Source of the DNA: a virus
Direction: 5' to 3' (one strand)
Virus record (IMG/VR): IMGVR_UViG_3300030430_002235
Coordinates: 27,441-58,248 of that record
DNA length: 30,808 nt
A model generated the notes under the pieces. The model was not told the DNA's origin. It searched no databases and saw nothing but the letters and a program-made list of their open reading frames with translations. The translations under genes and the position numbers were made by a program. Shown in pieces: positions 3,711 to 30,808 of the stretch (positions are counted from its first letter, which is position 1; the number at the start of each line of letters is the position of its first letter).

Positions 3711-4526
3711 ATGAAACAAAACAATATTTACTCTGAGCCTATAATAGACTTAGAGATAACTGACGCTACCTATTATGGTGATGATAGGTATATGTCACAA
3801 AGCATGTTGTCGTATGTCGAAAAAAGTATGCGACACTATATAGAATATATATCTGGTAATATAGGTGTCTATGAAACCGAGGCTATGAAGTTTGGAACTG
3901 CATATCATCATTTTGTTTTAGAACCTGAAACATTTGATGATGTATATTTTATATTAGATTTACTTGAAAGACCAGAGCCTACCAGGAGCATGAATCTGGC
4001 AGCCAATAAAAGATGGAAAGAAGATATAATGTTAGCTAACGTTAATAAACAATTAATTAACTCTAATGATTTTGATTCAATAAAATGTATGGCTAAAGAA
4101 CTATCTACAAATAATAACATACAAGATTTGTTTGTTGGCTCAGAATTTGAAAAGATTATCCTATGGAAAAATAGAGAGTCAGGTGTGTTGTGTAAAGGTA
4201 AAATAGATATTATTAATGAAGACAAAGGATTTATTTGTGATTTAAAAACCTGTCAATCGGCTAATCCAAAAGTTTTTAAAGACACTATAGTTAATAGAAA
4301 CTATCATAGGCAAGCAGCTTTCTATTTAGATGCTGTTGGTATGAAAGACTACTATATAATAGCTCAAGAAAAAGTTTATCCGTTTGCATATTGCACATAT
4401 AAACTATCAGATGAGTTAATAGAAGAAGGAAGAAAAGAATATCAAATGCTACTTAATAAGTTTAAATCTTTAAATGATGGCATTAACTTTAATCATTACA
4501 ACAATGGCAAAGTATATGAAGTCTAA
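3711..4526 (+). CDS. PD-(D/E)XK exonuclease, RecE/Cas4-like
   Basis: This 271-residue protein has the motif order of phage PD-(D/E)XK exonucleases of the exodeoxyribonuclease VIII type: SQSMLSYVEKS and FGTAYHHFVLEP near the N-terminus, then GKIDII with D166, DLKT with D177 and K179, and a QAAFYLDAV helix (the Q-xxx-Y motif). These residues bind metal and cleave the phosphodiester bond. Such enzymes resect double-stranded ends to give single-stranded tails for an annealase, here probably the Sak4-type ATPase encoded at 343. I see no iron-sulphur cysteine cluster of the kind found in many Cas4 proteins. It starts 14 bases after the DUF1599 gene, and its end overlaps the next gene. Confidence 0.85.
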   Translation: MKQNNIYSEPIIDLEITDATYYGDDRYMSQSMLSYVEKSMRHYIEYISGNIGVYETEAMKFGTAYHHFVLEPETFDDVYFILDLLERPEPTRSMNLAANKRWKEDIMLANVNKQLINSNDFDSIKCMAKELSTNNNIQDLFVGSEFEKIILWKNRESGVLCKGKIDIINEDKGFICDLKTCQSANPKVFKDTIVNRNYHRQAAFYLDAVGMKDYYIIAQEKVYPFAYCTYKLSDELIEEGRKEYQMLLNKFKSLNDGINFNHYNNGKVYEV

Positions 4527-12222: not shown

Positions 12223-12250
12223 CAAATATAATTTAATTTACTTAAACAAA
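12223..12250 (-). promoter_or_regulatory. Candidate Bacteroidota-type promoter for the distal late genes
   Basis: Read on the minus strand, the gap before the gene starting at 12204 contains TATATTTG (12223-12230), an exact match to the Bacteroidota -7 consensus TAnnTTTG. A TTTG (12247-12250) lies 16 bases upstream, in the position of the -33 element though slightly closer than usual. Transcription would begin about 12 bases before the ATG at 12204. The rest of the gap is A/T only. It would let the small late genes be expressed independently of the 16 kb upstream. AT-rich sequence makes chance matches possible. Confidence 0.4.
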
Positions 12251-15200
12251 ACTTCTTGAACATCAAAATCTTGCTGAGACATTAGCTGTCTACTAATTTT
12301 ATTGAATGGTAATAACCTAACTAAAGGTGTAGTACCCTTCCATTCTCCCCTATCTGCATACCTACCTTTTCTTTTCATTTTAGCAAACCCAAATTCTTTC
12401 TGTGATACAGGCACACTATATCTAGCAAGTAACATTGCATTTTCAAATGTTTGTAATGAAGGTGGTAGCATAAAATATGTAAACTTAGGAGTATCAAATA
12501 TTAACAAAGCATCACTTACAGTTCTAGAAACAAAGTGATATAATGGGTCTTCATCATCTTGACCTGCAGCTTTTAAAGAAAATAATATAGCAGTTAATAT
12601 CATTGTCATACCTAGTCCTCGTAGAGCAGCATACGCAGCCTCTCGTTTATATTGAGGCATATTGCGTAGCTGTTCTATAGCCTCTTGTGTAGTTATCTGA
12701 TTATTTAAAACTTGTCTAGCAAATTTTGTAGCTTCTCTAGCATACTCAACTCCAGCTACATAACTACCTATTTCTCTTTCACCATATTTATTTATTTGGT
12801 CTCTACCAAATCTATCCATTATGTATGTAGGCAACCATCTTTTGTGTTGCATAAATGCACGACCTAAAGAATACATTTGTATTAACCTTTGGTCTGTAGG
12901 AGAGTAACCTCTACCATGTACCTTTCTTACTCTATCTTCTATCTGAGATTGTCTTGTTGGTGTAATGCCAGGCATATTTTCTAAAAGATTACCATTTACA
13001 TCATATGAGTTCCACTCTTCTTCTGTAAGCTCTCCTAAAAATGCTGCACCCTGTATCCAATTTTCAGAACCTTGCATTACCATAAATAAAATATCATCTA
13101 TAGATTTACCTGCAAAGTTTAATGTGCCTGGGGTAGAAGGAACTAAATCATATAAACTATGAGTCATAAAAGCTGTCTTCTTTAATATAGCCATAGACTT
13201 TCTAAACGCTGTTTGTGTACCCTCAAAATCTCCTTTTAACATTCTATCTATACCCCAGAATCTAGCTTCACCTTTAGCAAACTTTCCAACACCTCTCTTT
13301 CTTATTTCATTGTACTTACCTACAGCCACGTTAAATATACCAGCAGGTATGTTAAGTGCAAGTGTAATATACATTGTGTATTTAACAAATCCATCAACTA
13401 CAGGGTCAACGCCTTTAGCAACGTCTTGTTTCTTTTGTAGTAACTGTCCCTCTTTATAAAGTTTAGTAAGATACATAACAATATTTTTGTTGCCTTCATT
13501 TTCATTGATACGAATTAAACCATCTACTAATGGCATAAACTCTATCATACCTCCAAACTTACCACCAACTTCTTTAGTTCCAAATGTATAGTATGTAGAT
13601 TTTACATGTTCTAATAAAGCTCTATGTATATTTTTAGTACCAAATGCTTTAGCTTTTACAGAACGACTATTACTATATCTGTAGAACATATCTCCACCCT
13701 GCATAGCATCAGTGTTAGTATTACGTAAATTAAAATATCTGTTAGTAAATTTACCATCTTCAGACATATGCATACCTCTACGCAAACCTTCCTGAGCTAA
13801 CTTCTCTAGTCTTTTATATTCTCTTATAGACTCTATATCTTTCAACACAGAATTATTTACATTACCATAACCATATAGTTTTTGGAATTCTTCAAACGGC
13901 AATAGTACTCTTTCTCCTGTTTCAGGATTTGTACCTAAAACTTCTACTACACCTATATCGTTTATTCCTCTATTAGTTAACATAAACAAACCAAATAAAC
14001 CTCTAGACTGTAATGCTTCAAAAGGACTCATCTTAATATTAGGAATATAATTATCACGCATTTCAGCATTAGATATTTTTCTAGTAGATTCAGTAGTTTC
14101 TTTATACATATTCCAATAATCTCTTTCTTCTTTAGTTAGATTTAATTGATTTATTCCCTGTATAATAGAACCATTTTTATCTCTATAATAAACTATACTA
14201 TCACCATCTTTTCTTTTAATATTATCAAGTGGTCTTAATGCAATACCATCTGGAGATTCATAATATATATTTCCATAATAGTGCTCATAAAACTCATTAG
14301 GTGCAAATTTTGCTCTAACCTTTTGTAAAATACTAAATGATTTGTTTTTAGATTCTACAAGTTTTTGATGAACAGTATTTATTTCTTTTACCTTTTCATT
14401 TAATTCAGATATATATCTTTTATATTCCTCATCAAATTTACGTTGCAAAAATTGTACACCTTCATTTCTGCTATCTATATTATTAGCCAACATATAAGCT
14501 TGTGCCACAGATATATCTCTAGCTCCAGGCTCAGTCTGTTCATAACCTTCTATCTTCTCTTGTATCATCTTATGTTGGTCGTTAGTCGCACGCTGTGCCA
14601 TTTCCTCAACAAGTCTATTATACAAATCTTCTGTAGCACGATAATCCATACCGCCTAATTGTAACACTTGAATATGGTCTCTTAACAACTCATCAGTAAA
14701 CTCTTCTCTTCTTTGATAGTAAGGTATACCTTCTTCATTAACTTCAGCAAACTTTTTTTCTATAGCATTCATTAATCTTTTTTGCTCTACATAATTATTG
14801 TAGTAAGGCGTATATCTATTTATTAATGATTCGTCATTTAATATTTCAGTAACATCTCTATCAAGTAACGCAGACTCTAACCAACCTCTAAATGATTTAA
14901 CATCTTCCGTATTATTTAAATTTTCTATATCTATAGTTTGTTCTGCAGTTAACGGGTCGCCTGGTATTATATCTTCTTCTTTTATTTTTTGTTGTACTTC
15001 TTTTATAGACTTAAGAGTTTCATTACCTACATTTCTTTTAAATCTACCTCTAGGTTTTCTTTCTTGTGTATTTGTTTGATTATAAGTTTCAAAAGATTCT
15101 TCTGTATATGTAGAAGGTTTTATAATATGCTGCTCATTAGTATTGTATTCTTTATAAAACTTATAATCTCCTAAAGTATCTTGAGCTATATTCTCTATAT

Positions 15201-18200
15201 ATATAAATGAAATACCTGTGGTTTTGTCAAATAATTTTACATATTTAGGTGGTGCAGACTTACCTATAACTTGAGTAGATAGTGTTACTGAATTATCTGC
15301 TTCCAAAACATATGAATCTAAATCTTCAGTTATTTCAAATTCATATCTACGTTTACCATCTCTCCATTCTTGTATAGCACCAAACTCAGGCTCAAACAAA
15401 ACACTATCAATCATATCCTCTTCGAATTTTTCAATAGTTTCAGAAGAACTAATGTATCTCGAATATCCTTCTTGTATAGTCTTTAATGTAGAGTCAGGCA
15501 TCATATGTAGTATAGAGTTAGGGCTCGTACCAAATTGATGTGATAGGTAATCATACTGAATAAGTAAGTTTATTTCATCTTGTGTAAGATTATCTTGCAG
15601 TTCTTTACCTATACGCTCAAGTTCTTGTTCAGCTAAGTCTTGTGTATATTCTTGGTTAGATACTAAGCCTATACCTTGTATTACTCTACCATCTTTTAAT
15701 ACTTCATCATTTTGAAATAATGTAGCTTTGCTAAAAAATTCAAGCTCACCATATTTTTCTACAAGCTCTTCTAGTTTAGGTAAATAAGATTTTTCATTTA
15801 TAGAATATAAATTTTGTAATGCAGGTACTGTATTAACTGCAATATACTCTGAGTATCTTCTAGTTATGTTAAGTAAATTGTCTGGTGTTTGCAAATATCT
15901 TCTTGTACCTACAAAACCTTCTACAAATACATCAAATAATTTAGAATGATTTTGATGCCATTTAGTAAGTCTATCTATAATATTTAAATTATGTTGTACT
16001 TTAGGGCTTTGTATAAACTCTTGTACTTCTCCTGATTCTTCATTAAACATTGGTTTAAATGCATTTGAAGATTCTAACACAATTAGTGATGATTGATGTG
16101 GGGATGATTGTATTCCATTGTGTATACCCATATATGCAGTAGTTCCTAGTGCAGCTTGATTTATAGCCTCAAGATTGTACAATAACTTTAATACATCTTT
16201 TTTATTTTTATTTAATACTATATCTCCTAAGTTTACTTTATTTATACCTACAAATAAATCATCTCTAAATTTTTTATAAGCATCATCAAATTTAGGATTA
16301 GGTTTACGCCTACCACCTTGTGTTATAAATGGTTTAATACTTGTAACTTTACCAAACAAAGAACGCATAACAGTACGTTTGTCTGGTTTGTTTTCATATT
16401 GTTGTTCAAATAAACTTAAAGGTTTAGATAGTCTTGAGTATTCTTGATATATAGGCGATTTAAACAATGTTACTATATCTTGAGTAGGTATACCCATATA
16501 TGACAATATAATAGCGTGTGATAGAGTTATTGCATCATATCCAAGCTCCTCAGTCTTTTGATGTGATGGTTCATCTAACACAGTATTTAATATTTTAGCT
16601 ACCTCTATAAAATTAGCTACACCCTGTTCTTTATTGTATATAGTATCAAATTCACTAAATGTTCTTGACACACCATCTATACCTGTTATAGTAAATGTAG
16701 CGGGTAATTTTATATTATATCTTAAAAAATAACTAAATAATCTTTGAGCGTTTGCAGCAAAACCTATTAGAGGACTAGACTCTAAATTTGTTTTAGATGT
16801 AATTTTATTACCTAGTAATCTTAATCTATGAGGAGGTTTTGATTGCTCTGTAGATAATTTAAAAAACTTATTGCTATTATCTATAGCTTTTTGATTGTCT
16901 TCTGCAAATGTACTCATTTGTAGTTTAAGTTCATCCTGCACTTCTTTACTACCAAATAGTTGAACTTCTAAATCAAAACCCTGATTATAAGTATTTTGCC
17001 AGGCTCTAGGATTTGCAAATTTACCATTAAAATATATTTGGTCACCATCTTTATCTGAACCCATTATCTCTGATATATATGGATTAAAGAATGTTTGATT
17101 ACCCATTTCAGGTTGTAATATTTCTTTAACTACAAATAAAACTCTAGTTTGTTTACCATGTGTAGGAATACGAGAGCCAAATATTAAATCACCTTCTTTT
17201 ATACCTACTCGTCTATTCCCAAATGTAGCAGGCAAAGAAACTTCAGACACTCTAATATTGCCATACTTTTGATTTAATAATTGTAGTTTTCTTTTATACT
17301 CGCCTGATGAATTTTTAATCAACTCAGTAAGAGATGTATAAGCTTTCCATTCATTTCCTATGGTAGAAGCTTCTGTACCTATGCCTCCAGGTGTTTGTAT
17401 TTTACTTCCAAATAATCCAAACTTTTTAGCTATAGATTTATCTCGCAAAGGAAATATTCCAGGCAAATCTTTTCCAGCTAAACTAGACAACCTAGATGCT
17501 TTGGAGCCGAATATTTTTTCACTTACATTTATAGCATCATTACCAAATACTTCAAACCTTCCTATAATTTCATTAAACTGTAACATTGTAGCTTGCATAT
17601 ATTTTTTATGCATCTTATCAACTAACGATTTCATTTCATCAGATAAGTTAATTAAATCAAATGCATATGCTTGCTCTGGTCTTTGAGATGAATATCTTTT
17701 TATATCTAAATCTAACTGAACGCCATAGTTTAATCCTGAAAACCCATAGTTACCATCATTAATTAGTATATTATTAAGCTGTGTATTTATATCTTCTATA
17801 GGTGTGTTTCTTCTAAACACAGGATAGCCTTTAGGTAAAACTTTACTTCCTGATTTATGATATACTACTGGTAAAGACATTTCACCTACACCAATATTAG
17901 CATCAGCTATTTGCTCTCTAGCTACAAGTATATCATATATATATTTATATTCAGGATGTTTTGTTACAAACTCCTCTGTTAATACACCAACATTAGATTT
18001 TAAATATGAATCTTCACCAAATATATTTACATTATCTTTTTCGACACCAGCACCAACAAACTTAAATGTACCAGGAGCTATGTTTTCTCCATCTAAATTG
18101 CCATACATATCGCGTATTTTCTTAGCTGTAACATCAGTAATATATGCTCCAGAGTCTGTTGCTATAGATGTTATGCCATCAGCTATTAACTCATCTACGG

Positions 18201-21200
18201 AACGATTTGTAATACGCTCTAATGTAGCCTCACCTACTATTGTACCTTTTAAATATTGACTATTAACATCTTCATTTAATACATAAAAATCTTCTAATAC
18301 AGTAAGGTCTATTCTTGTTTCCTCCCCTAATGGTATATGTTTAGCACCAGCACGTTTTGCTCTTTTTACAAAATCAATACTAGATTTGTTTTTAGTAGCA
18401 TCACCTATAAATATTTCTTGTAATTGAAATTGATTTATAATTTGATTAAACTGAATTCTTTGTACTTGAAGGTATGTCTCTGTACTTATAGAATCAATAT
18501 CTTCAAATATATCAGGTAATTGTTCTTTAATTACATCTAAATTTTCTAAATATTTTTTATTGTCTTGTATATATTTTATTAATTCTTCTTGACCCCGTGT
18601 ATATGAACGAACATCAAGCTCTAACTTACCATCTACTTCTTCTAAAAATGGAAATATAAACTCACCATTACCATACTTTGAACCATTTTTTTGTAACTTA
18701 TCTATAATTCTATTTGTTTCTGTTCTTATTTGTTCATCACTTAAAAATGGAACTTGAAAGAAATAATTATTTTTAGTATCACTTAATTGTCCTGCTGATT
18801 GTAAATATACTTGTTGGTCTTCTGCCAATGCATTTATCTGCATTAACATTTGCATTAATGTAAAATCATTAGCAGATAACTTGTTGTAGTTTTTCTTTAT
18901 TTTATTTCTTAACCTAGACTGTCCACCTGATATAGGCATGGGTACTAAATTTATTTCCCCTTCTAACAATGCATCTATCAAATGATTATCTTTATATAGC
19001 TCCTGTATAAGTTCATCATTTTCTACAGATTGTAATATTTCACTTATTTCAAATATAGAATTGTGTTTAGACACCGTATTTAATGATTCATTTTCAGCAG
19101 ACATTGTAGTAGCTTGATACCTTTCATCTACAGTAGCATCAAATATTTGTTGAAGTATTGGTCTAAACGCAGATTTAATATTTGGATTAATAAACTTACC
19201 TTGTTTGCTTGATGTTTTATTTAATTGTAAATCAAATACTTCACCCATAGACAATAGCTTACCATCTATTTCAAATAACAATCCTTCAAATTCAGGCTTT
19301 AATATATCTTCTTCAAATAAATTTATATTGTATATATCTAGCTGATTACCAAATAAAGCTTCTAATACTGTGTAAGCTAAATCAGTATTTGTTTCTACTC
19401 CTTTTAAAGAATCGTTAATTACTTTTCTAACCGCCTGCATTTCAGGTGTTCTATTTTTAGTATAATAGTTTCCTGCTGCTACAGCTAACATATGACTAAC
19501 AGATTGATATGTGTAGCTATTACGTGATACTCTAGAGTTTACTTTTATATTCGTTATATTGCCTTCATCATCTACTATAGGGTCTATAGTAAACATCATA
19601 AACTTTTGAAATCTTTTATTTCTATTTTCTTGATGTATAAATCTTAATGCAGGTATAGGATTTTCATTATATTTAAATGTAACATAATCCATAAACTCTG
19701 CAGCTAATGTATCTTCAGTAGATTGCATAAAATCTACAAAACCATAAAAGTCATCTTTATATTTTTGTGTAGTAGAATATAACATAGACAATACTTCTCT
19801 CTGGTATATAGGTCTTTCTTCTGTAGAAAAAGTTTCTAAAAAATCTGTCACCATATCTGACATTCTACTACTTATAGATTCTTCTTCATTACCACCAGCA
19901 TATTCAGTATTTATATCTTCTTCTCTACCATACAAAAGCTCTGCCTCTTGTTCTTGTAATACTGCAAAGTCTTTTATAAGTTTCTTTATTCCTGTTTCTT
20001 TTATAGGATAAAATAATGAGCCAAGTATTCTATTTTTTATTTGACTTTCAGTTAATATATCAATGCCAGGTATTTGTAATACAGCATCTAGTATTTTGTT
20101 ATAGTAATCTTGCACAGATTCAGTAGATATATCAAAAGTAGAATTGTTAATAATATTTTTAATCTGCTCTATTATTTTCTTTTGATTATCTTTACTTCGA
20201 CTAAATCTTCCTCTAGGATGATGAGCTTGTCGTATATTAGGGTTCTCTCTAAAGTTATTTATTATTCTTCTAATAAATCTTTCAGCAGGCACACCTTTTG
20301 TATTAGCAGTTTCATTTAATATTTCTACTGCTTTATTTCTTTCAGGTGCAGAACGATTTACTAAATCAAAAAAATCTTTTATTCTTGATATAATATTAGG
20401 TTTTTGTGCACCAAATACTTGACCATACTTTTCTAACAGTGGGTCTTCTAATAAAGCTTGCATAGCTTCATCAAGTATTATTTCTTGTTCACTATCAGGT
20501 AATACTTCAAGTCCTAATGAATTTATAAATGAATCATACTCTGCTTTATTGTTGGGATTTCTTTTATTTGTTTCAAAAAATATGTCTGCTCCTGTTTTGT
20601 TTCCTTTAGGAGTAGCATATAATATTTGGTCAAAGTATCCGTTCTTTGTATTTTCAAATAATGATGTGCCAGGCAATAATTTAAGTAAAGCTTGTACTTC
20701 TTCTGAGTTTATATGTATATCTCTAAAAAAATGTCCAAACTCATGCATTATAGCTTTTTGTACACTTTTATCTACAAGCTCTCCATTTTCGCCAACTTTA
20801 TAATTTACATACGCACTAGTACCTATTGCATATCCAGTAGTATTTAAACCAAACCTTTCTTGTAATATATCAACAAAACGTAACTCTCTACTAGGAAACT
20901 TTGATTTCAAATAATCTCTCAATGCTATCTCTGTACCTGCTCTTCTATAACTATATTTAGGTTTGTATTGTAATGGAGCTTTTTCTCTAAAATCATCTGC
21001 AATACTTTTTCTACCTTTCTGTTTACGCTTAGTAGTATTAGTTCTTTTAGGTTTTAATATTTTTTTAGTTTTTTCAAACAATGATAGTTGAACTGGAGTG
21101 CCCTCTAATAATCCTTGTTGTTTTTGTATTTCCTCTAAAACTAATTTTTTTGAAACAACACCTTTTCTAAATTGGTCTGCTATAGATTTTGCTAAACCTT

Positions 21201-24015
21201 TTTCTTCTATCTGTTGTTCTGTTTCTTTACCTCCTCTTTTAAGATATTCTTTTGCAAACTTAGCAGCAGACTCTTCTGCTGTTTGATTTTCTAAACTACC
21301 TTCAGGAGTTTGTAACCATGCAGAAACTAAATCTGATAATGAACCTTTTTTACTTACAGCTTTGCTTTCTGACTCTACAGTAGAAACTTCTTGACTTTTA
21401 TAAACTCTATTAAATTGGTCTTCAGATAAATCAGCTTTCATCTTTGGATTCATAATAGCATCAGGGCCTTCAGTTTGGTCTGTTGTGACTACACCCCCAG
21501 CTTCTTCAAATATGTCTAGTTCTTGTCTAGTAGATAAATTATCTCTTTCAATAACATTTTTATCAGCTATTTTACCATTGTTAAAAGGCACATACCTATC
21601 ACCATCCAATATTTCCCAGTTACGTGAGCCATCTAAACGTGTTGTTACTCTAAATTTTTGAACACTTCCATCGTTATTTGTTACAGTAAAGTATTCTCTT
21701 TTAACAGGAATTTGACTATCTTCAAACCTAGGTTTAGCAGATTTTTTTAAAATAGCTTTACCTGTAGAACTAGTAGGTTTAATTTTCCTATTAGTATTTT
21801 GATTAATTATAGTTCCATCACTAGTTATTGTATAGCTTCTTCCTTTATATTGAACTACTCGTGGTTTAGTTTTTGGTTCTTCTTTTTGCTCTACCTTTTG
21901 TGTTTGTGATGTAGGAGTAGGAGTAACTTGTTGATTAACATAATTCTGAGCTTCTTCAAATGACATATTATTATCTATAACAAATTGTGCTATATCATTA
22001 GCTCTATCATTAGTTATATTACCATCTTCAATACTTTGGTCTAGTATATCATTTATTACATTTTCTTCATCAATAGACATAGTAGGGCCAAATGTAGGCT
22101 CTACACCTTCTGGTGGTTGTGGAGTAGGTGCTTTAGGAGCTTCAGGTGTAGGAGCTGTTTCAAACTCTTGTCTTTCTTGTTCCCTTTGCTCTTGTGCTTG
22201 TCTTTGTTCTTCAGCTCTTTGTTGTGCTTGTTGCTCTCTTCTTTGTTGAAAATAAATACCTGACTGCATAGAAACAATATCTTCATTAACTTGATTTAGT
22301 TGCTGTCTTTCTATTTCAAGCTGTTCTATTGTGTCAGGTTCTAAAGAATATAACTCTTGTATTTTTTGTTCTTTTTGTTCTTGAGATATATCTAGATTAT
22401 TTATTTTATTTATTTCATCAGCAAATACAGACTCTAAATCTTTAATTTTATTTTCTGATTCTTGTCTTTTTAAATATGCAGCAGCCAACTCTCTTTTTTC
22501 ATTTGGCTTCATTCTACTTAAATCTACAGAAGGTGTTTCATTAAATGCTTTATTAACTTGTTTAGCTGTTTGAAAAACTAATTTAGCATCTTCTTGACTC
22601 ATTACCCCTGCATCAACTAATTCATTTGTAAGTTCTTCTGTGTTGCCTAATCTTCCATCTATAGCATTATCTAATATTATAGAGCGTATTCTTTCTTGTT
22701 TATTAACAGTAAGGTCAGTAGCAGAAGGGTCTATTTTAGCTGCAAGTAAATCATAATCATTTGCTAGTAAAGCTTTTCGTTCTGCTACATTGTTAATTAC
22801 TTGACCTACACTACCAAATAATAATCCACTAGCAAAAGAAATACCTCTAGTTTCTTGTGCCTCCTCGCTATTAAAGAAATCTAAATAAGACATATAGTCT
22901 TCGCCTTTAACCTCAGCTCTTGCTTTACCTTTTATCCACTCTTGATATGTTTCTTGAAACATTTCAGTAGTAGCTTCAATACCTCCTGCACTAGTTATTG
23001 CTGCTGCTTTTATACCAAATTCTTTTGCTGTATTCCTAGCTCCAAAACCTAAAGTTCTTCTTAAACCTCTACCTGTAACTCCACCTACAACTGTAGCATA
23101 CGATATTGATTCTATTAAAAACGATGCTTGATTATCTATATATACAGAAGATGCTACTTCTGCTGCCATATTTTGTGCTTGTTCTGGAGTATAACCTTCT
23201 TGTATAAATTGATTATAAGACGTTTCAAGCGTCTCTCCTGCAATAACTGCTCCATCTATAGCAGTCATAGCAGTACCAGCTCCTAAAAAGCCTCCTGTTG
23301 CACCTAATGCTCTAGTTCCAATTTGTTTTGCAGTAACACCTTGCAAAGCTTTTAGTCCAGGTAATTTAGTTAAACCTTTAGACGTTATAGCTTTACCTAA
23401 ACCATTAGCTAATGTTGGAGCATATTTAGCTAATGTTGTTGCCATTTTAGTACCTACCTTAGCTCCAGCAGCACCAGGAATAAATAATGATAATGTAAAT
23501 GGAATAGTTCTAGCAACAGAGGTAGCCCAAAATTCTGGATTGGCTAAATCGTCCCAACTAAAATCTGCTATTTCTGGAGATTTTTCTACAGTATATTTTT
23601 CAGCTATTGAACCACCAAGCTCTGTTAATGTATCTCCTATCTTATTAGAATACCAACTACCACCTGTAAGTGCTCCAATAGCATTAGCTCCAGTTGTTAA
23701 TCCTATAAAATTAATAGCATCACCAAAACCTTCTATAGTATCACCAACACCTGCTAATAAACTTCTACGAGTTTTTCTAAATAAACCCATACCTGTTCCT
23801 GAAGCTACCTCTACAGGTGCTATTAAATCTGCTTCTTGTGCATCTATAGGAGAAACTTTAGCTATTTGTATAGCTGCAGTTTCTGTTTCTTTATAACCAG
23901 AACCACCATCTATAGGTGGAAATAAAGATTGTTCTTGTGCTTGTTGTACAGGAGATGTTTCATCAACACCTGGCGTACTAACATTATCTATAGGTGGAAA
24001 TAAATTATCAGACAT
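12238..24015 (-). CDS. Giant virion RNA polymerase / ejection fusion protein (3925 aa)
   Basis: Visible regions in order: two LFPPID repeats (5-10, 31-36); Gly/Ala-rich amphipathic and hydrophobic helices (about 75-365) as in phage ejection proteins; a glutamine-rich coiled coil (about 560-630); a Pro-rich linker; a zincin motif HEFGH (1091-1095) with a possible third ligand E1183; and an RNA polymerase-like part. There, SGSK (ending K2058) may belong to the beta-like barrel; RIPTHG (R2282) parallels the R-x-P-T-x-H of beta', and DKDGD (2321-2325) is the DxDGD Mg-binding signature of two-barrel polymerases such as YonO and the crAss-like virion enzyme. The last 400 residues include hydrophobic helices (about 3535-3565 and 3802-3817). 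It is probably packaged and injected to transcribe early genes. The start overlaps the upstream stop (TAATG). Confidence 0.8.
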   Translation of the reverse strand: MSDNLFPPIDNVSTPGVDETSPVQQAQEQSLFPPIDGGSGYKETETAAIQIAKVSPIDAQEADLIAPVEVASGTGMGLFRKTRRSLLAGVGDTIEGFGDAINFIGLTTGANAIGALTGGSWYSNKIGDTLTELGGSIAEKYTVEKSPEIADFSWDDLANPEFWATSVARTIPFTLSLFIPGAAGAKVGTKMATTLAKYAPTLANGLGKAITSKGLTKLPGLKALQGVTAKQIGTRALGATGGFLGAGTAMTAIDGAVIAGETLETSYNQFIQEGYTPEQAQNMAAEVASSVYIDNQASFLIESISYATVVGGVTGRGLRRTLGFGARNTAKEFGIKAAAITSAGGIEATTEMFQETYQEWIKGKARAEVKGEDYMSYLDFFNSEEAQETRGISFASGLLFGSVGQVINNVAERKALLANDYDLLAAKIDPSATDLTVNKQERIRSIILDNAIDGRLGNTEELTNELVDAGVMSQEDAKLVFQTAKQVNKAFNETPSVDLSRMKPNEKRELAAAYLKRQESENKIKDLESVFADEINKINNLDISQEQKEQKIQELYSLEPDTIEQLEIERQQLNQVNEDIVSMQSGIYFQQRREQQAQQRAEEQRQAQEQREQERQEFETAPTPEAPKAPTPQPPEGVEPTFGPTMSIDEENVINDILDQSIEDGNITNDRANDIAQFVIDNNMSFEEAQNYVNQQVTPTPTSQTQKVEQKEEPKTKPRVVQYKGRSYTITSDGTIINQNTNRKIKPTSSTGKAILKKSAKPRFEDSQIPVKREYFTVTNNDGSVQKFRVTTRLDGSRNWEILDGDRYVPFNNGKIADKNVIERDNLSTRQELDIFEEAGGVVTTDQTEGPDAIMNPKMKADLSEDQFNRVYKSQEVSTVESESKAVSKKGSLSDLVSAWLQTPEGSLENQTAEESAAKFAKEYLKRGGKETEQQIEEKGLAKSIADQFRKGVVSKKLVLEEIQKQQGLLEGTPVQLSLFEKTKKILKPKRTNTTKRKQKGRKSIADDFREKAPLQYKPKYSYRRAGTEIALRDYLKSKFPSRELRFVDILQERFGLNTTGYAIGTSAYVNYKVGENGELVDKSVQKAIMHEFGHFFRDIHINSEEVQALLKLLPGTSLFENTKNGYFDQILYATPKGNKTGADIFFETNKRNPNNKAEYDSFINSLGLEVLPDSEQEIILDEAMQALLEDPLLEKYGQVFGAQKPNIISRIKDFFDLVNRSAPERNKAVEILNETANTKGVPAERFIRRIINNFRENPNIRQAHHPRGRFSRSKDNQKKIIEQIKNIINNSTFDISTESVQDYYNKILDAVLQIPGIDILTESQIKNRILGSLFYPIKETGIKKLIKDFAVLQEQEAELLYGREEDINTEYAGGNEEESISSRMSDMVTDFLETFSTEERPIYQREVLSMLYSTTQKYKDDFYGFVDFMQSTEDTLAAEFMDYVTFKYNENPIPALRFIHQENRNKRFQKFMMFTIDPIVDDEGNITNIKVNSRVSRNSYTYQSVSHMLAVAAGNYYTKNRTPEMQAVRKVINDSLKGVETNTDLAYTVLEALFGNQLDIYNINLFEEDILKPEFEGLLFEIDGKLLSMGEVFDLQLNKTSSKQGKFINPNIKSAFRPILQQIFDATVDERYQATTMSAENESLNTVSKHNSIFEISEILQSVENDELIQELYKDNHLIDALLEGEINLVPMPISGGQSRLRNKIKKNYNKLSANDFTLMQMLMQINALAEDQQVYLQSAGQLSDTKNNYFFQVPFLSDEQIRTETNRIIDKLQKNGSKYGNGEFIFPFLEEVDGKLELDVRSYTRGQEELIKYIQDNKKYLENLDVIKEQLPDIFEDIDSISTETYLQVQRIQFNQIINQFQLQEIFIGDATKNKSSIDFVKRAKRAGAKHIPLGEETRIDLTVLEDFYVLNEDVNSQYLKGTIVGEATLERITNRSVDELIADGITSIATDSGAYITDVTAKKIRDMYGNLDGENIAPGTFKFVGAGVEKDNVNIFGEDSYLKSNVGVLTEEFVTKHPEYKYIYDILVAREQIADANIGVGEMSLPVVYHKSGSKVLPKGYPVFRRNTPIEDINTQLNNILINDGNYGFSGLNYGVQLDLDIKRYSSQRPEQAYAFDLINLSDEMKSLVDKMHKKYMQATMLQFNEIIGRFEVFGNDAINVSEKIFGSKASRLSSLAGKDLPGIFPLRDKSIAKKFGLFGSKIQTPGGIGTEASTIGNEWKAYTSLTELIKNSSGEYKRKLQLLNQKYGNIRVSEVSLPATFGNRRVGIKEGDLIFGSRIPTHGKQTRVLFVVKEILQPEMGNQTFFNPYISEIMGSDKDGDQIYFNGKFANPRAWQNTYNQGFDLEVQLFGSKEVQDELKLQMSTFAEDNQKAIDNSNKFFKLSTEQSKPPHRLRLLGNKITSKTNLESSPLIGFAANAQRLFSYFLRYNIKLPATFTITGIDGVSRTFSEFDTIYNKEQGVANFIEVAKILNTVLDEPSHQKTEELGYDAITLSHAIILSYMGIPTQDIVTLFKSPIYQEYSRLSKPLSLFEQQYENKPDKRTVMRSLFGKVTSIKPFITQGGRRKPNPKFDDAYKKFRDDLFVGINKVNLGDIVLNKNKKDVLKLLYNLEAINQAALGTTAYMGIHNGIQSSPHQSSLIVLESSNAFKPMFNEESGEVQEFIQSPKVQHNLNIIDRLTKWHQNHSKLFDVFVEGFVGTRRYLQTPDNLLNITRRYSEYIAVNTVPALQNLYSINEKSYLPKLEELVEKYGELEFFSKATLFQNDEVLKDGRVIQGIGLVSNQEYTQDLAEQELERIGKELQDNLTQDEINLLIQYDYLSHQFGTSPNSILHMMPDSTLKTIQEGYSRYISSSETIEKFEEDMIDSVLFEPEFGAIQEWRDGKRRYEFEITEDLDSYVLEADNSVTLSTQVIGKSAPPKYVKLFDKTTGISFIYIENIAQDTLGDYKFYKEYNTNEQHIIKPSTYTEESFETYNQTNTQERKPRGRFKRNVGNETLKSIKEVQQKIKEEDIIPGDPLTAEQTIDIENLNNTEDVKSFRGWLESALLDRDVTEILNDESLINRYTPYYNNYVEQKRLMNAIEKKFAEVNEEGIPYYQRREEFTDELLRDHIQVLQLGGMDYRATEDLYNRLVEEMAQRATNDQHKMIQEKIEGYEQTEPGARDISVAQAYMLANNIDSRNEGVQFLQRKFDEEYKRYISELNEKVKEINTVHQKLVESKNKSFSILQKVRAKFAPNEFYEHYYGNIYYESPDGIALRPLDNIKRKDGDSIVYYRDKNGSIIQGINQLNLTKEERDYWNMYKETTESTRKISNAEMRDNYIPNIKMSPFEALQSRGLFGLFMLTNRGINDIGVVEVLGTNPETGERVLLPFEEFQKLYGYGNVNNSVLKDIESIREYKRLEKLAQEGLRRGMHMSEDGKFTNRYFNLRNTNTDAMQGGDMFYRYSNSRSVKAKAFGTKNIHRALLEHVKSTYYTFGTKEVGGKFGGMIEFMPLVDGLIRINENEGNKNIVMYLTKLYKEGQLLQKKQDVAKGVDPVVDGFVKYTMYITLALNIPAGIFNVAVGKYNEIRKRGVGKFAKGEARFWGIDRMLKGDFEGTQTAFRKSMAILKKTAFMTHSLYDLVPSTPGTLNFAGKSIDDILFMVMQGSENWIQGAAFLGELTEEEWNSYDVNGNLLENMPGITPTRQSQIEDRVRKVHGRGYSPTDQRLIQMYSLGRAFMQHKRWLPTYIMDRFGRDQINKYGEREIGSYVAGVEYAREATKFARQVLNNQITTQEAIEQLRNMPQYKREAAYAALRGLGMTMILTAILFSLKAAGQDDEDPLYHFVSRTVSDALLIFDTPKFTYFMLPPSLQTFENAMLLARYSVPVSQKEFGFAKMKRKGRYADRGEWKGTTPLVRLLPFNKISRQLMSQQDFDVQEVLFK
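23908..24004. repeat. 19-base direct repeat encoding the LFPPID motif twice
   Basis: The plus-strand sequence ATCTATAGGTGGAAATAAA occurs at 23908-23926 and again at 23986-24004, 78 bases apart, in the same frame. It encodes LFPPID at residues 5-10 and 31-36 of the 3925-residue protein. The identical DNA suggests a recent duplication or selection for a repeated short peptide. The two motifs sit in a disordered, acidic N-terminal leader, a typical place for a docking or packaging signal. Confidence 0.75.
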
Positions 24016-25792: not shown

Positions 25793-28546
25793 TTACGGAT
25801 TTGTTATAATAGTATTTTCGCCACCAGTATTTTCATAATCAGTAGCATTATTATCATTAATTTCATTATTTAATTCGTCAATCTGATTTTCCTCATCTAT
25901 AATTTGATTAGCTGCATTAGCGTCTCCACCAGCATCATTTAAAGCATTATCATTTCTTGTATTATTTTTTTGTTTGTCTTGTAAATCTTTTTCTTCATCA
26001 GTTAATAAAATACCATCATCTACTGGATTACCATTAGCATCAACACCATACATATCTATAAGTCTTCTTTCTTTAATTGTATGATTAATACTACCTGGCC
26101 CATATTGTCTTTGATATTGTATTTCATCCAACATATTTTCAAATGCTTCAGATGCAAAAGTAGCAGCAGAAGCTTTGTCCCTTAACTGCTCTTGTATTTT
26201 TTCTGTACGAAGAGTCATTTTATTTTTAGCATCATGCTCTTCTTTATAAGTTAAAACCTTACCATAATTCTGTAAGTTAATCCTATTCATTTGTGCATCT
26301 TTAGCTGCAAAATCTAATAATGCTCTACTTCTATTTGCATCCACCTGTCCAGACATAGCTAAAAATCTAGCTCTATCTCCTGCAGTTCCTCTAATTAAAT
26401 TTTCTACACCAAGTTTATATGATGCATTTATATCACGCATAGCCTTAGCTTCTTCTGCTACAGAAAAACCCCTGTCTGCTAACTCTCTATTTTTTTCTAA
26501 GTAATCTAAAAATGCATCACTTAATTGCGGCAAGTCATCTTTCTCTAACGGTTTAGTTGCTTTTCGCATAGCTGCTGCTCCAAGTATACCAGATATAATA
26601 GCAGTAGCTCCACCTAATCCTCTTTCTAAAGATTGTAGTGTAGATATACTTTTATCTTGAATATCCTTTATATCTTCTTGCTCTTCAACATCACCTTCGA
26701 TTACTACTTCATCTATTTCAGTAGGTATTTTTTTATCTTCTTCAACATATTCACCTGGAACCGTTTGTACATCAGTAACTTTAACATCTGCTAAAGGGTC
26801 TTCTGGAGTATCTACAGGGTCACCATCACCTGCAGTTTTTATTTCACTTAAATCATCTTGAGTAATAATAACATCCTTAACCTGCTCTGCTGTTAAATTA
26901 AATGGTAGGTCTGTTCTAGGATTACCTTGAACAACAGAAATATCATAAGCTGTTTTAGCTATTTGTGCTTGTACCTTTTTTATTTCATCTACAGAGAATA
27001 ACTCAGGATTTTCTTGCATCTGAGCTAACTGCTCTCTTAATTGTTTTTCAGTAGCAACTAAATTAGGCAATACTTTTGCTTGTTCTTCTTTTGCTAATTT
27101 TTGTTTATAAGCATCTAATTTATTTTGTGCTTGTTCTACTTTAGATTTACTAGCTTGGTCTTGTCTTGCTTGATATGCTTTTTTTGCATCAGCAAGTTCT
27201 TTTTCTAAAACAGCAAGAAATTCATCAGGTTTTTTTGCATCTTCTGCATCTCGTTGTTGAAGACTTTCTTTACTTTCTTGTAGATTTTTTTCTTGCTCTA
27301 TTTGAGTATATTTTGCTAATACTTTTGGGTCAGTAGTTAACTGTGCAGGTTTATTATCTACAAAAGAAAATCGTTTTTGAAAATCACTTTGGGTTGTAAG
27401 TGCTTCGTCAAAATAAGCTTTATAGTATTTACTACCATCTGCAAACTCTTCTTCGCTAAAAAAACTACTTGTACCTCCAGGTGTATCGCCACCTATAGTG
27501 GTATACATAGTACCTATTTCATTTATCTCATCTTGCGTATATAAACCTTCATTATCTTGAGCTTCGTGTGTCCAAGTTTTTGTATCAGGATTATAAGAAG
27601 AAATTATTTTAGTATACTTCTGAGTTCTTTCATCATATACTCGATATACATTATCAAGCATAGATTCATTCTTTACAGTTAAGTCTTCAGATTCTTGCTC
27701 TGATTCCTCGCTCCCTTCTAAATTTCTTGTGGTTGTAGTTTCCTCTTGATTTGTTTCTTCTTGATTTGCATCTGCTGTAACTTCTACTTCATCTAAAGTA
27801 TTATCTGCAACATCTTGTCTTTCTTCAGAGTCTTGTTGTTCTGAACCAGTTAATTCAAACTGTGTAGTATAATCTGTAGAATTAGTTCTTAATGTTTTTA
27901 AATCTACATCTTTTGTCCACTTATCTAAATCAATTTTAAATTTATCAGTACGAAATTGATTTAATCTTTTTAACCAACCCTTACCATGTTTACTATATGT
28001 TCCTGAACGAGTATATGAATCTTCTCTAGTTAAAGAATATGCATCATTTACTACATCAGCTCCTTTTTCATCTATTGCTTTATTTAATGCATCAATAGCT
28101 TCTTTATTAGTAAATGTAGCATTATCACCATATCCTAACCTATTAAGTGTTCTTGCAAGTGTAACATGTTTACCAGGGCCACCTAAAGTATAGGTTTGGT
28201 TAATCATAGCATCATATATATTAGCTGCTAATTTATCATCCTTTATATCATCTAAATTATTAGCATCCCAATAATGCTTTTTAAAATGACTATTAACATT
28301 ATCTTTGGTATATTTATTAAACTTTTTTACTTCTGCATCAAATGTAGCCTTATCGCTAATTTTAATTTTATTCTTAGTTATATAGTCATAAAATGTTAAG
28401 CCATATCTTGTTGGTATAAATTTCTTTTGAGCACCAGCATACTTAGGCTTGAAATAATTACCTGTATCGTTTTTATCTGTAGATATGCCGCCTTCATTTT
28501 TAGCAACAATGTTTTCAGCATTTTGATAAGATGTTAATTTTGCCAT
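25793..28546 (-). CDS. Ejection-type protein with N-terminal GH108 lysozyme-like domain (917 aa)
   Basis: Residues about 8-205 form a glycoside hydrolase family 108 domain with its PG-binding partner: NEGGIS has the catalytic glutamate E18, followed by NDTGN, RYGLTFYDY, KKHYWDANNLDDIKDDKLAA and NIYDAMINQTYTLGG. This enzyme class cleaves peptidoglycan glycan strands. Then come an acidic, Glu/Thr-rich linker (about 225-290), a mixed region, long coiled coils (about 420-500), one Gly/Ala hydrophobic segment (LGGATAIISGILGAAAM, about 640) and a helical C-terminus ending in an Asn/Asp-rich tail. The fusion fits a virion-carried lysozyme that opens the wall for DNA entry, as T7 gp16 does. It begins one base after the end of the frameshifted frame. 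Confidence 0.8.
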   Translation of the reverse strand: MAKLTSYQNAENIVAKNEGGISTDKNDTGNYFKPKYAGAQKKFIPTRYGLTFYDYITKNKIKISDKATFDAEVKKFNKYTKDNVNSHFKKHYWDANNLDDIKDDKLAANIYDAMINQTYTLGGPGKHVTLARTLNRLGYGDNATFTNKEAIDALNKAIDEKGADVVNDAYSLTREDSYTRSGTYSKHGKGWLKRLNQFRTDKFKIDLDKWTKDVDLKTLRTNSTDYTTQFELTGSEQQDSEERQDVADNTLDEVEVTADANQEETNQEETTTTRNLEGSEESEQESEDLTVKNESMLDNVYRVYDERTQKYTKIISSYNPDTKTWTHEAQDNEGLYTQDEINEIGTMYTTIGGDTPGGTSSFFSEEEFADGSKYYKAYFDEALTTQSDFQKRFSFVDNKPAQLTTDPKVLAKYTQIEQEKNLQESKESLQQRDAEDAKKPDEFLAVLEKELADAKKAYQARQDQASKSKVEQAQNKLDAYKQKLAKEEQAKVLPNLVATEKQLREQLAQMQENPELFSVDEIKKVQAQIAKTAYDISVVQGNPRTDLPFNLTAEQVKDVIITQDDLSEIKTAGDGDPVDTPEDPLADVKVTDVQTVPGEYVEEDKKIPTEIDEVVIEGDVEEQEDIKDIQDKSISTLQSLERGLGGATAIISGILGAAAMRKATKPLEKDDLPQLSDAFLDYLEKNRELADRGFSVAEEAKAMRDINASYKLGVENLIRGTAGDRARFLAMSGQVDANRSRALLDFAAKDAQMNRINLQNYGKVLTYKEEHDAKNKMTLRTEKIQEQLRDKASAATFASEAFENMLDEIQYQRQYGPGSINHTIKERRLIDMYGVDANGNPVDDGILLTDEEKDLQDKQKNNTRNDNALNDAGGDANAANQIIDEENQIDELNNEINDNNATDYENTGGENTIITNP

Positions 28547-28547
28547 A

Positions 28548-29653
28548 TTAATCTGTATTATATTTTGCCCAAGTTTGTTCAGCTTTTATTATAGCTTCAC
28601 CTAACTCTTTTAAATTTCTAGCTTTGTCAATTCTTTCTCTTTGTTTAGGGTTAAATATTAAAGAACCATCACCCATATTTTTTGTTTTAGATTTACCATT
28701 CTTTAAATACATAGTATCTCCAATAATAGGTATATCATTTTCACCATGTTTATACTTTCCAGGAGTAACAAATTTATCTGCCTCCGTATAAAGTATTGCT
28801 TTTATTATAGGAGATTTAGCTTTAGTAATGGCCTTGCCATGGGCAGCATCTGTTATCTCCTCTTGACCTGTTACTATCGCATCTGCCCTATCGAATACTT
28901 TCCCGCAAGAGTACCCCCATGCTCTCTAATATCTAAAGCTCTATTTGTTTTTACAAGATTACCGTTTTTATCATACATAAATCCTGGAGGTGGTGGTGGC
29001 ATATTAGTTTTTTTACCACCCATATTAAATTTACCACCATATTTTCTCATCATAGGAGTGGTAGAAAGACCTTCAGAACCCATAGGATTCATATCTTGTA
29101 AAGCCATAGTAGACCTTTCAAGTCTTTCTTTCTCTTCTAGTTCTTCTGCATCCTCTATGCTTTTTTTAATGTTATTTCTAGTCTCTTCACGTTGTTTACT
29201 TAACTGCTCTTCTTTTAATCTTTTTTCTTCTTTACGAGCTTTATTTCTATTTATTAATCCAGTAGCTAAAGCTGCACCACCACCAACTATTGCACCAATA
29301 GGGCCAAATGAAGCACCTGCTGCAGCTCCTTTAGCAACATCTCCTAATACTTCACCACCTTTATAAGTAGTAGCATCATTATCATCTGCTAATTGTCCTA
29401 TAGTAGCACCAGCCATTCCTGCTAAACCAGCACCTTGAGTTAATTCATCTGAAGGAGTAGTTAATTCTTCAAACTTACTAACGCCACCTTCTTCTTTATA
29501 CTTCTTTTTTCTCTTGCGATACTTACCGCCCTTTAAATACATTTCTGCAAGTTCTGGATTCATTTCTTGCTGAACATCTTCAGGCAACATACTGAAGCCT
29601 TTAAACTTACTAGGAACTTTTCCTCCTGGTTTTCTATATCTATTTCTTACCAT
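28548..29653 (-). CDS. Frameshift-extended ejection-type protein (368 aa, predicted -1 fusion)
   Basis: Reading the first frame to Lys252 and then slipping back one base at GGGAAAG continues into a second open frame ending in TAA at 28548-28550, giving 368 residues. The extra 116 residues begin VFDRADAIVTGQEEITDAAH and contain KYKHGENDIPIIGD and a helical end (KARNLKELGEAIIKAEQTWA); they look like normal protein sequence. Its stop lies one base before the next ATG, whereas without it there would be a 327-base gap in a block whose other gaps are at most 33 bases. Expected amounts are minor relative to the short form. The alternative is an assembly or sequencing indel in one 368-residue gene. 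Confidence 0.7.
28841..28888 (-). other. Candidate stimulatory stem downstream of the slippery site
   Basis: In the mRNA, GGGCAG begins 9 bases after the heptamer and is perfectly complementary to CTGCCC 36 bases further on (arms at 28883-28888 and 28841-28846). Six base pairs with five G-C are notable in an AT-rich genome. A small ATGGC-AAG-GCCAT hairpin follows directly. The spacing matches that of frameshift-stimulating structures, but the long loop makes this a candidate only. Confidence 0.4.
28874..29653 (-). CDS. Glycine-zipper ejection-type protein, unshifted product (259 aa)
   Basis: Ordinary translation from ATG 29653 ends at TAG 28874-28876. The protein has a basic N-terminus (RNRYRKPGGKVPSKFKGFSM), a Gly/Ala-rich hydrophobic zipper (about 82-140, with GAAAGASFGPIGAIVGGGAA) typical of pore-forming internal virion proteins such as T7 gp14, a charged helix (NRNKARKEEKRLKEEQ), and a C-terminal part with a run of five prolines followed by GFMYDKNGN. 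It probably inserts into the host envelope during DNA ejection. It starts three bases after the upstream gene. The final seven residues (YSIGQMR) are unique to this form. Confidence 0.7.
   Translation of the reverse strand: MVRNRYRKPGGKVPSKFKGFSMLPEDVQQEMNPELAEMYLKGGKYRKRKKKYKEEGGVSKFEELTTPSDELTQGAGLAGMAGATIGQLADDNDATTYKGGEVLGDVAKGAAAGASFGPIGAIVGGGAALATGLINRNKARKEEKRLKEEQLSKQREETRNNIKKSIEDAEELEEKERLERSTMALQDMNPMGSEGLSTTPMMRKYGGKFNMGGKKTNMPPPPPGFMYDKNGNLVKTNRALDIREHGGTLAGKYSIGQMR
28898..28904 (-). promoter_or_regulatory. Programmed -1 frameshift slippery heptamer GGGAAAG
   Basis: On the coding (minus) strand the codons read gcG GGA AAG, so the heptamer is in the correct X-XXY-YYZ phase. It is the same heptamer used at the lambda G/GT tail gene junction. 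Both tRNAs can re-pair after a one-base slip (GGA to GGG, AAG to AAA). It lies inside the short window (28877-28925) where both frames are open. Site function is predicted, not shown. Confidence 0.7.
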
Positions 29654-29656
29654 ATC

Positions 29657-30808
29657 TTATCTATTAGATTGTCTGTATTTATACCCTATTGCAAATATAT
29701 TATATTTTCTAGTCATATTTACATTCTCAAGTATTGTTGTTGTTATATAAGTCCCTCTTAATCTGTTAGTAGCAGTTTGATTTCTTATAGGCAATTTTAA
29801 AACTCCATACCTATAACTTTCTACATCACCATTAATATAACTTACAGTTTGTGTAGTATCCATTTCAGGAGAATCAAAAGTTATACTTGTAAATTTAAAT
29901 GGATTGGGATTACCTGCTGTAGCTCCTGCTTGATTTTCTCCTTCATATATTATATCTAAATTATCAAATATTTTAGAAATACTAGGAGCTTCATTTAAAA
30001 TTAACTTTATACTAAATTCTTGTGCATTATTTTCAAAAGTACATAATGGAGCTAATTCATCATCCCAAAGATTTAAGTTCTTACTCTTCATAGAGTATGA
30101 CTTTGTACTAGAGTTACTTATTGTATATATTCTATTGTCATGTGAAATCCAATAGCTTGGCTTATAACTATATCTAGAAGTAATAAGTTTTAATTGTTCA
30201 TTGTATGCTATTGTATTATATATTTCATTTTTTTTATTAGTTGCAACTGAATTAGTATTTCTTAATTTATATGAATCAAAAAATGTAAATATAGCCTCAT
30301 TATTTTTATGGTCATATACCGAATGTATACCTTCATTAACTAATGGTCTATCAAATTTTTTCAATGTATTAACATAATCATATCCACTCAATTGTACGCC
30401 TAAACTATTTATATAGCTATATCCTCCTATTATATCTCTAAGAAATTTCTTATTGGCTGTTATATCTCCTATAGATGTTAGCTTTCTTCCATCAAAAGAA
30501 AATAACTCATCGTGTATAGCATCCGCCCAATAAGCCATATTATCACTTACACAAACACTATGTTGATGTATTGTACCAAACTCTGTACTTGCATAAGAAT
30601 GGTCTTGCACTGTATCTCCTGTTCCTGTAAATATTTGTCCACCTGAGCTATCTGTAATAACTGTTCTTGGATTTACTAACAAATTACCTACACCTCTTTC
30701 TTGTAAAAAATATAAATTATCTCTTATTAAAAATAAAGAATTAATTTCTCCTAAATTACCATCTACATCATGAAAGTTTGCAGGTGGGAATGTATCCCAT
30801 GCATTATA
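29657..30808 (-). CDS. Large tail/connector protein, N-terminal part beyond window edge
   Basis: The frame is open from the right edge to TAA at 29657-29659, showing the last 383 residues; the true start lies beyond 30808. An in-frame TTG at 30682 is not a credible start because coding-quality sequence continues upstream (ANFHDVDGNLGEINSLFLIR). The visible part is beta-rich with many Tyr, Asn and Ser (YLQERG-like turns, GTGDTVQDHSYASTEFGT, ISHDNRIYTISNSSTKSYSM), resembling the large propeller-like 'stabilization' or tail-tube proteins of crAss-like phages as I recall them. Position immediately upstream of the ejection genes fits a tail or connector component. It ends three bases before the next ATG. 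Confidence 0.65.
   Translation of the reverse strand, partial: YNAWDTFPPANFHDVDGNLGEINSLFLIRDNLYFLQERGVGNLLVNPRTVITDSSGGQIFTGTGDTVQDHSYASTEFGTIHQHSVCVSDNMAYWADAIHDELFSFDGRKLTSIGDITANKKFLRDIIGGYSYINSLGVQLSGYDYVNTLKKFDRPLVNEGIHSVYDHKNNEAIFTFFDSYKLRNTNSVATNKKNEIYNTIAYNEQLKLITSRYSYKPSYWISHDNRIYTISNSSTKSYSMKSKNLNLWDDELAPLCTFENNAQEFSIKLILNEAPSISKIFDNLDIIYEGENQAGATAGNPNPFKFTSITFDSPEMDTTQTVSYINGDVESYRYGVLKLPIRNQTATNRLRGTYITTTILENVNMTRKYNIFAIGYKYRQSNR

Follow-up and report, generated by a model that had tools for sequence, protein, structure and literature searches.

The question raised by this locus is whether a minus-strand gene, which appears to end at an ordinary stop codon, also encodes a second and longer protein. 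The analysed window is a stretch of 30,808 nt that comprises bases 27441-58248 of a virus record of 58,248 bases. The gene located directly upstream, of which the window contains the C-terminal part (29657..30808, minus strand), codes for a crassvirus muzzle protein (PF25731, E 1.1e-34), and the virus was therefore assigned to the crAss-like phages. We conclude that the gene is very probably subject to programmed −1 ribosomal frameshifting on the heptamer G_GGA_AAG, which would produce 259-aa and 368-aa forms of a homologue of cargo protein 1.

The 0-frame ORF (28874..29653, minus strand) extends from the ATG at 29653 to the TAG at 28874 and encodes 259 amino acids, the putative short form. 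The −1 frame of the same strand is open from 28925 to the TAA at 28550-28548. The two frames overlap over 16 codons (28877..28925), and the heptamer (28898..28904, minus strand) is placed inside this overlap. The next gene starts with an ATG at 28546, 1 nt past the stop of the −1 frame; it encodes a 917-aa protein (25793..28546, minus strand) with an N-terminal GH108 lysozyme-like domain (PF05838, E 5.8e-9). This layout agrees with the first-pass annotation, which had described an in-phase heptamer within an overlap of about 16 codons and a second frame that runs to 28548 and stops one base before the following gene. The extension of 116 residues given there had to be qualified. The −1 frame indeed supplies 116 new residues, from VFDRADAIV to the TAA (28548..28898, minus strand), which together with 252 shared residues make up the 368 aa, but the long form exceeds the short one by 109 residues and not by 116. 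The predicted shifted product reads ...GGTLAGK-VFDRADAIV.... In the 0 frame, the TAG is directly followed by TAA (28871..28876, minus strand), and even if TAG were read as a sense codon, the short form would terminate at this point. A reassignment of the TAG codon is therefore irrelevant to the short form.

The 0-frame codons of the overlap include GCG GGA AAG TAT, which puts G_GGA_AAG, a heptamer of the X_XXY_YYZ type, in phase for tandem −1 slippage. In E. coli, this heptamer is among the three most efficient ones, and bacterial −1 cassettes are characterized by an SD-like sequence 6-17 nt upstream and/or a hairpin 4-10 nt downstream with G-C as the first pair (PMC4066793). Candidates for both stimulators are present here. 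An SD-like GGGGG of the GGNGG type (28914..28918, minus strand) is located 9 nt before the heptamer, within the distance given in PMC4066793. A candidate stimulatory stem begins 9 nt after the heptamer and consists of the 5′ arm GGGCAG (28883..28888) and the 3′ arm CTGCCC (28841..28846), both on the minus strand; this is the GC-rich 6-bp stem that had been noticed before. Beside it, a small hairpin ATGGC-AAG-GCCAT (28828..28840, minus strand) was predicted that could stack on the stem, and a possible pseudoknot joins TAGTAA (28876-28871) with TTACTA (28828-28823).

The rarity of these elements was assessed over the minus-strand genes of the window, which offer 7,813 in-frame positions. G_GGA_AAG occurs in phase only once, inside the 16-codon overlap, and any X_XXA_AAG occurs in phase at 8 positions. 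Only 0.05% of in-frame positions have, 4-10 nt downstream, the start of a perfect 6-bp stem that opens with a G-C pair and contains at least 5 G/C; an SD-like site lies 6-17 nt upstream of 12% of positions. With a GC content of 47%, the region 28925-28806 ranks in the top 0.2% of 120-nt windows (mean 31%), and the cassette uses codons that are rare in the phage (GGG, GCG, and GCC, with 5%, 2%, and 2% of their families, respectively). Such raised GC and rare codons are as expected if the RNA sequence is constrained. The folding energy of the cassette, including the small hairpin, was not better than that of shuffled sequences (z −0.14 to −1.08); it is therefore the position of the stem, and not its stability, that makes it a candidate. 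A search of Rfam gave no match.

The same arrangement was found in one more genome, the IMG/VR contig IMGVR_UViG_3300037991_002384, which stands behind the entries L002, L003, L004, and L010 and shares 91.5% identity with the window over 2.27 kb. Overlap, heptamer, stem, and stops all recur there; the overlap and the cassette are unchanged, and the gene contains no indel. Past the 0-frame stop (107 codons), the −1 frames of the two genomes differ by 6 synonymous changes and a single D-to-E replacement. Read in the other two frames, the same changes would be nonsynonymous in 5 of 6 cases for one frame and in 6 of 6 for the other. The probability of observing at most one nonsynonymous change among 7 is about 0.0009 if a fraction of 0.77 is expected to be nonsynonymous. 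This pattern of substitutions indicates selection on the protein encoded in the −1 frame. Over 242 codons of the 0-frame part upstream, which changes much faster, there are 45 nonsynonymous codon changes and 21 synonymous ones. Amino-acid identity between the two genomes is 99% in the −1 domain compared with roughly 81% elsewhere in the gene. The zipper half is thus changing fast, while the −1 domain is almost invariant and better conserved than any other part of the gene. The −1 frame contains no ATG, GTG, or TTG before 28712 (first 71 codons), and the synonymous changes at 28790, 28751, 28748, and 28715 are all upstream of this position. Therefore, this stretch is translated, and ribosomes must enter it either by frameshifting or from a highly unusual start.

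The recoding cassette lies entirely within a block of 172 nt (28789..28960, minus strand) that is identical in the two genomes, the longest such run in the aligned 2.27 kb. Only 49 nt of the block are dual-coding. For its single-coding parts, the lack of any synonymous change has a P of 0.0015-0.055, depending on the reference rate, which gives modest support to a constraint at the RNA level; local recombination could be part of the reason why the block has diverged so little. Protein, profile, and DNA-pattern searches of IMG/VR, GTDB, and INPHARED revealed no further carriers of the arrangement beyond the window and IMGVR_UViG_3300037991_002384, and the observed conservation, both of the site and of the protein encoded in the −1 frame, refers to these two genomes only.

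More distant crAss-like contigs show what the −1 frame encodes. In three of them (L005, L006, and L011), the gene that directly follows the muzzle gene and precedes a homologue of the 917-aa gene is one open frame, encoding a protein of 622, 547, and 497 aa, respectively. The −1 domain was aligned with the C-termini of these proteins with Smith-Waterman scores of 80, 74, and 63, compared with means of 32-35 (sd about 5.5) for shuffled sequences, and none of the 1000 shuffles in each case reached the respective score. The −1 domain is thus homologous to these C-termini, and what the −1 frame specifies is therefore the C-terminal domain that this gene ordinarily has. The three relatives resemble the gene studied here in the glycine-zipper region, the homologous C-terminal domain, and the interval between the muzzle and lysozyme-domain genes, but they differ from it in having neither a frame break nor a strong in-phase heptamer at the junction. 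A comparable split with a strong junction heptamer was also not found in the 15 genes at the same position in named crAss-like phages and L018. As to the presence of both frames and the heptamer in relatives, which the first-pass annotation had put forward as a check, the close contig retains both, but the three distant ones do not. The uninterrupted frame in distant relatives points to a lineage-specific innovation and not to an artefact. Judged from these comparisons, the frameshift is an innovation of one lineage that has been kept over at least 8.5% nucleotide divergence.

The single frames of the three distant relatives would also fit the view that an indel has split the gene and left the −1 part as a remnant, or that a sequencing or assembly error obscures what is truly one 368-residue frame or a dead tail. 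We regard this as very improbable, since the independent contig has the same break at 91.5% identity with no indel, 6 of the 7 changes in the −1 frame are synonymous, the longest homopolymer at the site is GGGGG, and one of the most efficient slippery heptamers is positioned exactly in the overlap. The chance is just as small that ribosomes terminate and then reinitiate at a non-canonical ATA overlapping the stop codon (ATAG, 28877-28874), so that the −1 frame would yield a protein of its own. The ATAG overlap is present, and weak AUA initiation after SD-like sequences has been observed in E. coli reporters (PMC4066793). However, no suitably spaced SD-like sequence precedes the ATA, and no usual start codon follows in the −1 frame before 28712. 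Moreover, the domain is fused to the zipper protein in relatives, and reinitiation would leave the in-phase heptamer unexplained.

Slippage of RNA polymerase, giving rise to mRNAs in the other frame, could be suggested by the run of five G in the overlap. Stretches of five G or three A fall short, however, of the lengths known for efficient slippage, and the combination of stem and heptamer would again have no explanation; we consider this the least probable of the alternatives, with hardly any weight. Programmed −1 frameshifting, which the first-pass annotation had proposed, is supported by the conserved arrangement, the selection on the −1 frame, the lack of an early start codon, and the homology of the domain.

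The identity of the protein was approached through its position and its N-terminal part. In phiCrAss001, the gene in the same position is gp45, cargo protein 1. This protein is found inside the capsid and the tail, has a predicted transmembrane helix at 136-158, and has been proposed to be ejected first (PMC10172136). As in phiCrAss001, the gene in the window is directly 3′ of the muzzle gene, and it encodes an N-terminal glycine-rich transmembrane segment homologous to that of gp45. A profile of the zipper group (the window and its relatives) matched the N-termini of cargo protein 1 with an hhalign E of 1.5e-7 and a probability of 94%; the score was 59.7, compared with at most 17.4 for shuffled columns. 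In contrast to this likeness, gp45 is encoded by an uninterrupted frame of 842 aa, and no significant similarity was found between the −1 domain and the portal-bound domain PF25725 of gp45. The label of an ejection-type protein, given in the first-pass annotation, is backed by the position after the muzzle gene and the zipper homology with cargo protein 1, and on these grounds it is a fair one; from the same evidence we infer that the protein is present in the virion.

The nature of the −1 domain was examined separately. Neither frame gave any Pfam match, PF25725 included. A direct assignment of the −1 domain to PF25725 was tried and remained unproven, as the likeness was limited to a motif and the hhalign scores of 18-22 did not exceed the shuffled maximum of 22.7. 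AlphaFold prediction from two starting sequences gave mean pLDDT values of 43 and 41.5 and no confident fold, and profile and sequence searches of the PDB gave no credible match. Comparison of the next two genes (917 and 590 aa) with the C-terminus of gp45 and with gp46 did not reveal significant homology. In the 917-aa protein, the C-terminal region is conserved in L005, L006, and L011, and the N-terminal part differs in L005. In L018 (4110-8353), a separate 445-aa glycine-zipper gene is followed by a 964-aa gene, the middle of which (..EGQTHDEGGIMMDSQTEVEDGE..) is like the motifs of cargo protein 1. It seems that lineages differ in how the modules of cargo protein 1 are separated or fused. 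The gene in the cargo-protein-1 position of phage cr53_1 (L016:9028-10914) has four in-frame stops under table 11. Stop-codon reassignment is known in some crassviruses, and these in-frame stops are as expected for that.

Programmed frameshifts are known in tailed phages for tail chaperones, capsid proteins, and tail proteins. The tail chaperone pair G/GT of lambda relies on the same heptamer and the same −1 logic, and gpG/gpGT resembles the present case in the C-terminal extension obtained by a −1 shift. Unlike the lambda pair, which is encoded between the major tail protein and the tape measure protein, the gene in the window is not a tail chaperone and adjoins no tape measure gene; its neighbours are the crassvirus tail muzzle gene upstream and the gene of the GH108-domain protein. 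Kuraviruses and Privateer use GGGAAAG in the major capsid gene (PMC9965538, PMC7881722). In these phages (phiEco32 and Privateer), as in the major capsid protein of T3/T7 (gp10A/10B type), a −1 shift near the end of a virion gene leads to a short and a C-terminally extended form, which is similar to the arrangement proposed here. The difference is that their target is the major capsid protein, whereas here it is a cargo-type protein encoded behind the muzzle gene of a crAss-like phage. No report of a programmed frameshift in Crassvirales or in a cargo or ejection protein was found in the searchable literature, whose coverage is incomplete. The mechanism is a known one, and the kind of target is new.

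According to the mechanism that we propose, most ribosomes would halt at TAG-TAA and release the 259-aa glycine-zipper protein. A fraction would slip back by one base, with the Gly-tRNA and Lys-tRNA on GGA-AAG, presumably aided by the upstream SD-like GGGGG and the downstream GC-rich stem. The slipped ribosomes would then append the conserved C-terminal domain of 116 residues and complete the 368-aa form. Both forms may enter the virion, where a fixed ratio between them could matter for packing or ejection. Our guess is that the extra domain probably tethers a subset of the copies to a virion partner. We put forward more tentatively, as an idea that is rather doubtful at present, that many short copies constitute the membrane or channel part and that a few long copies are tethered by the C-terminal domain to a defined partner, e.g., the portal, so that translation would meter the ejection apparatus. 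If the frameshift is real, one gene gives two forms of an ejection protein in a set ratio, and the stoichiometry of the crassvirus ejection apparatus becomes directly testable. It would also show that gene callers can miss a conserved domain of 116 residues.

Other genes of the window were noted in the course of the analysis. A single ORF of 3925 aa (12238-24015, minus strand) has no match in Pfam or PHROGs; its position is that of the genes for giant virion RNA polymerase proteins in crassviruses. On the plus strand, a small protein (2473-2955) contains a DnaA C-terminal helix-turn-helix domain (PF08299, 2.6e-8), and its gene is located near Sak4-like (343-978) and exonuclease-like (3711-4526) genes.
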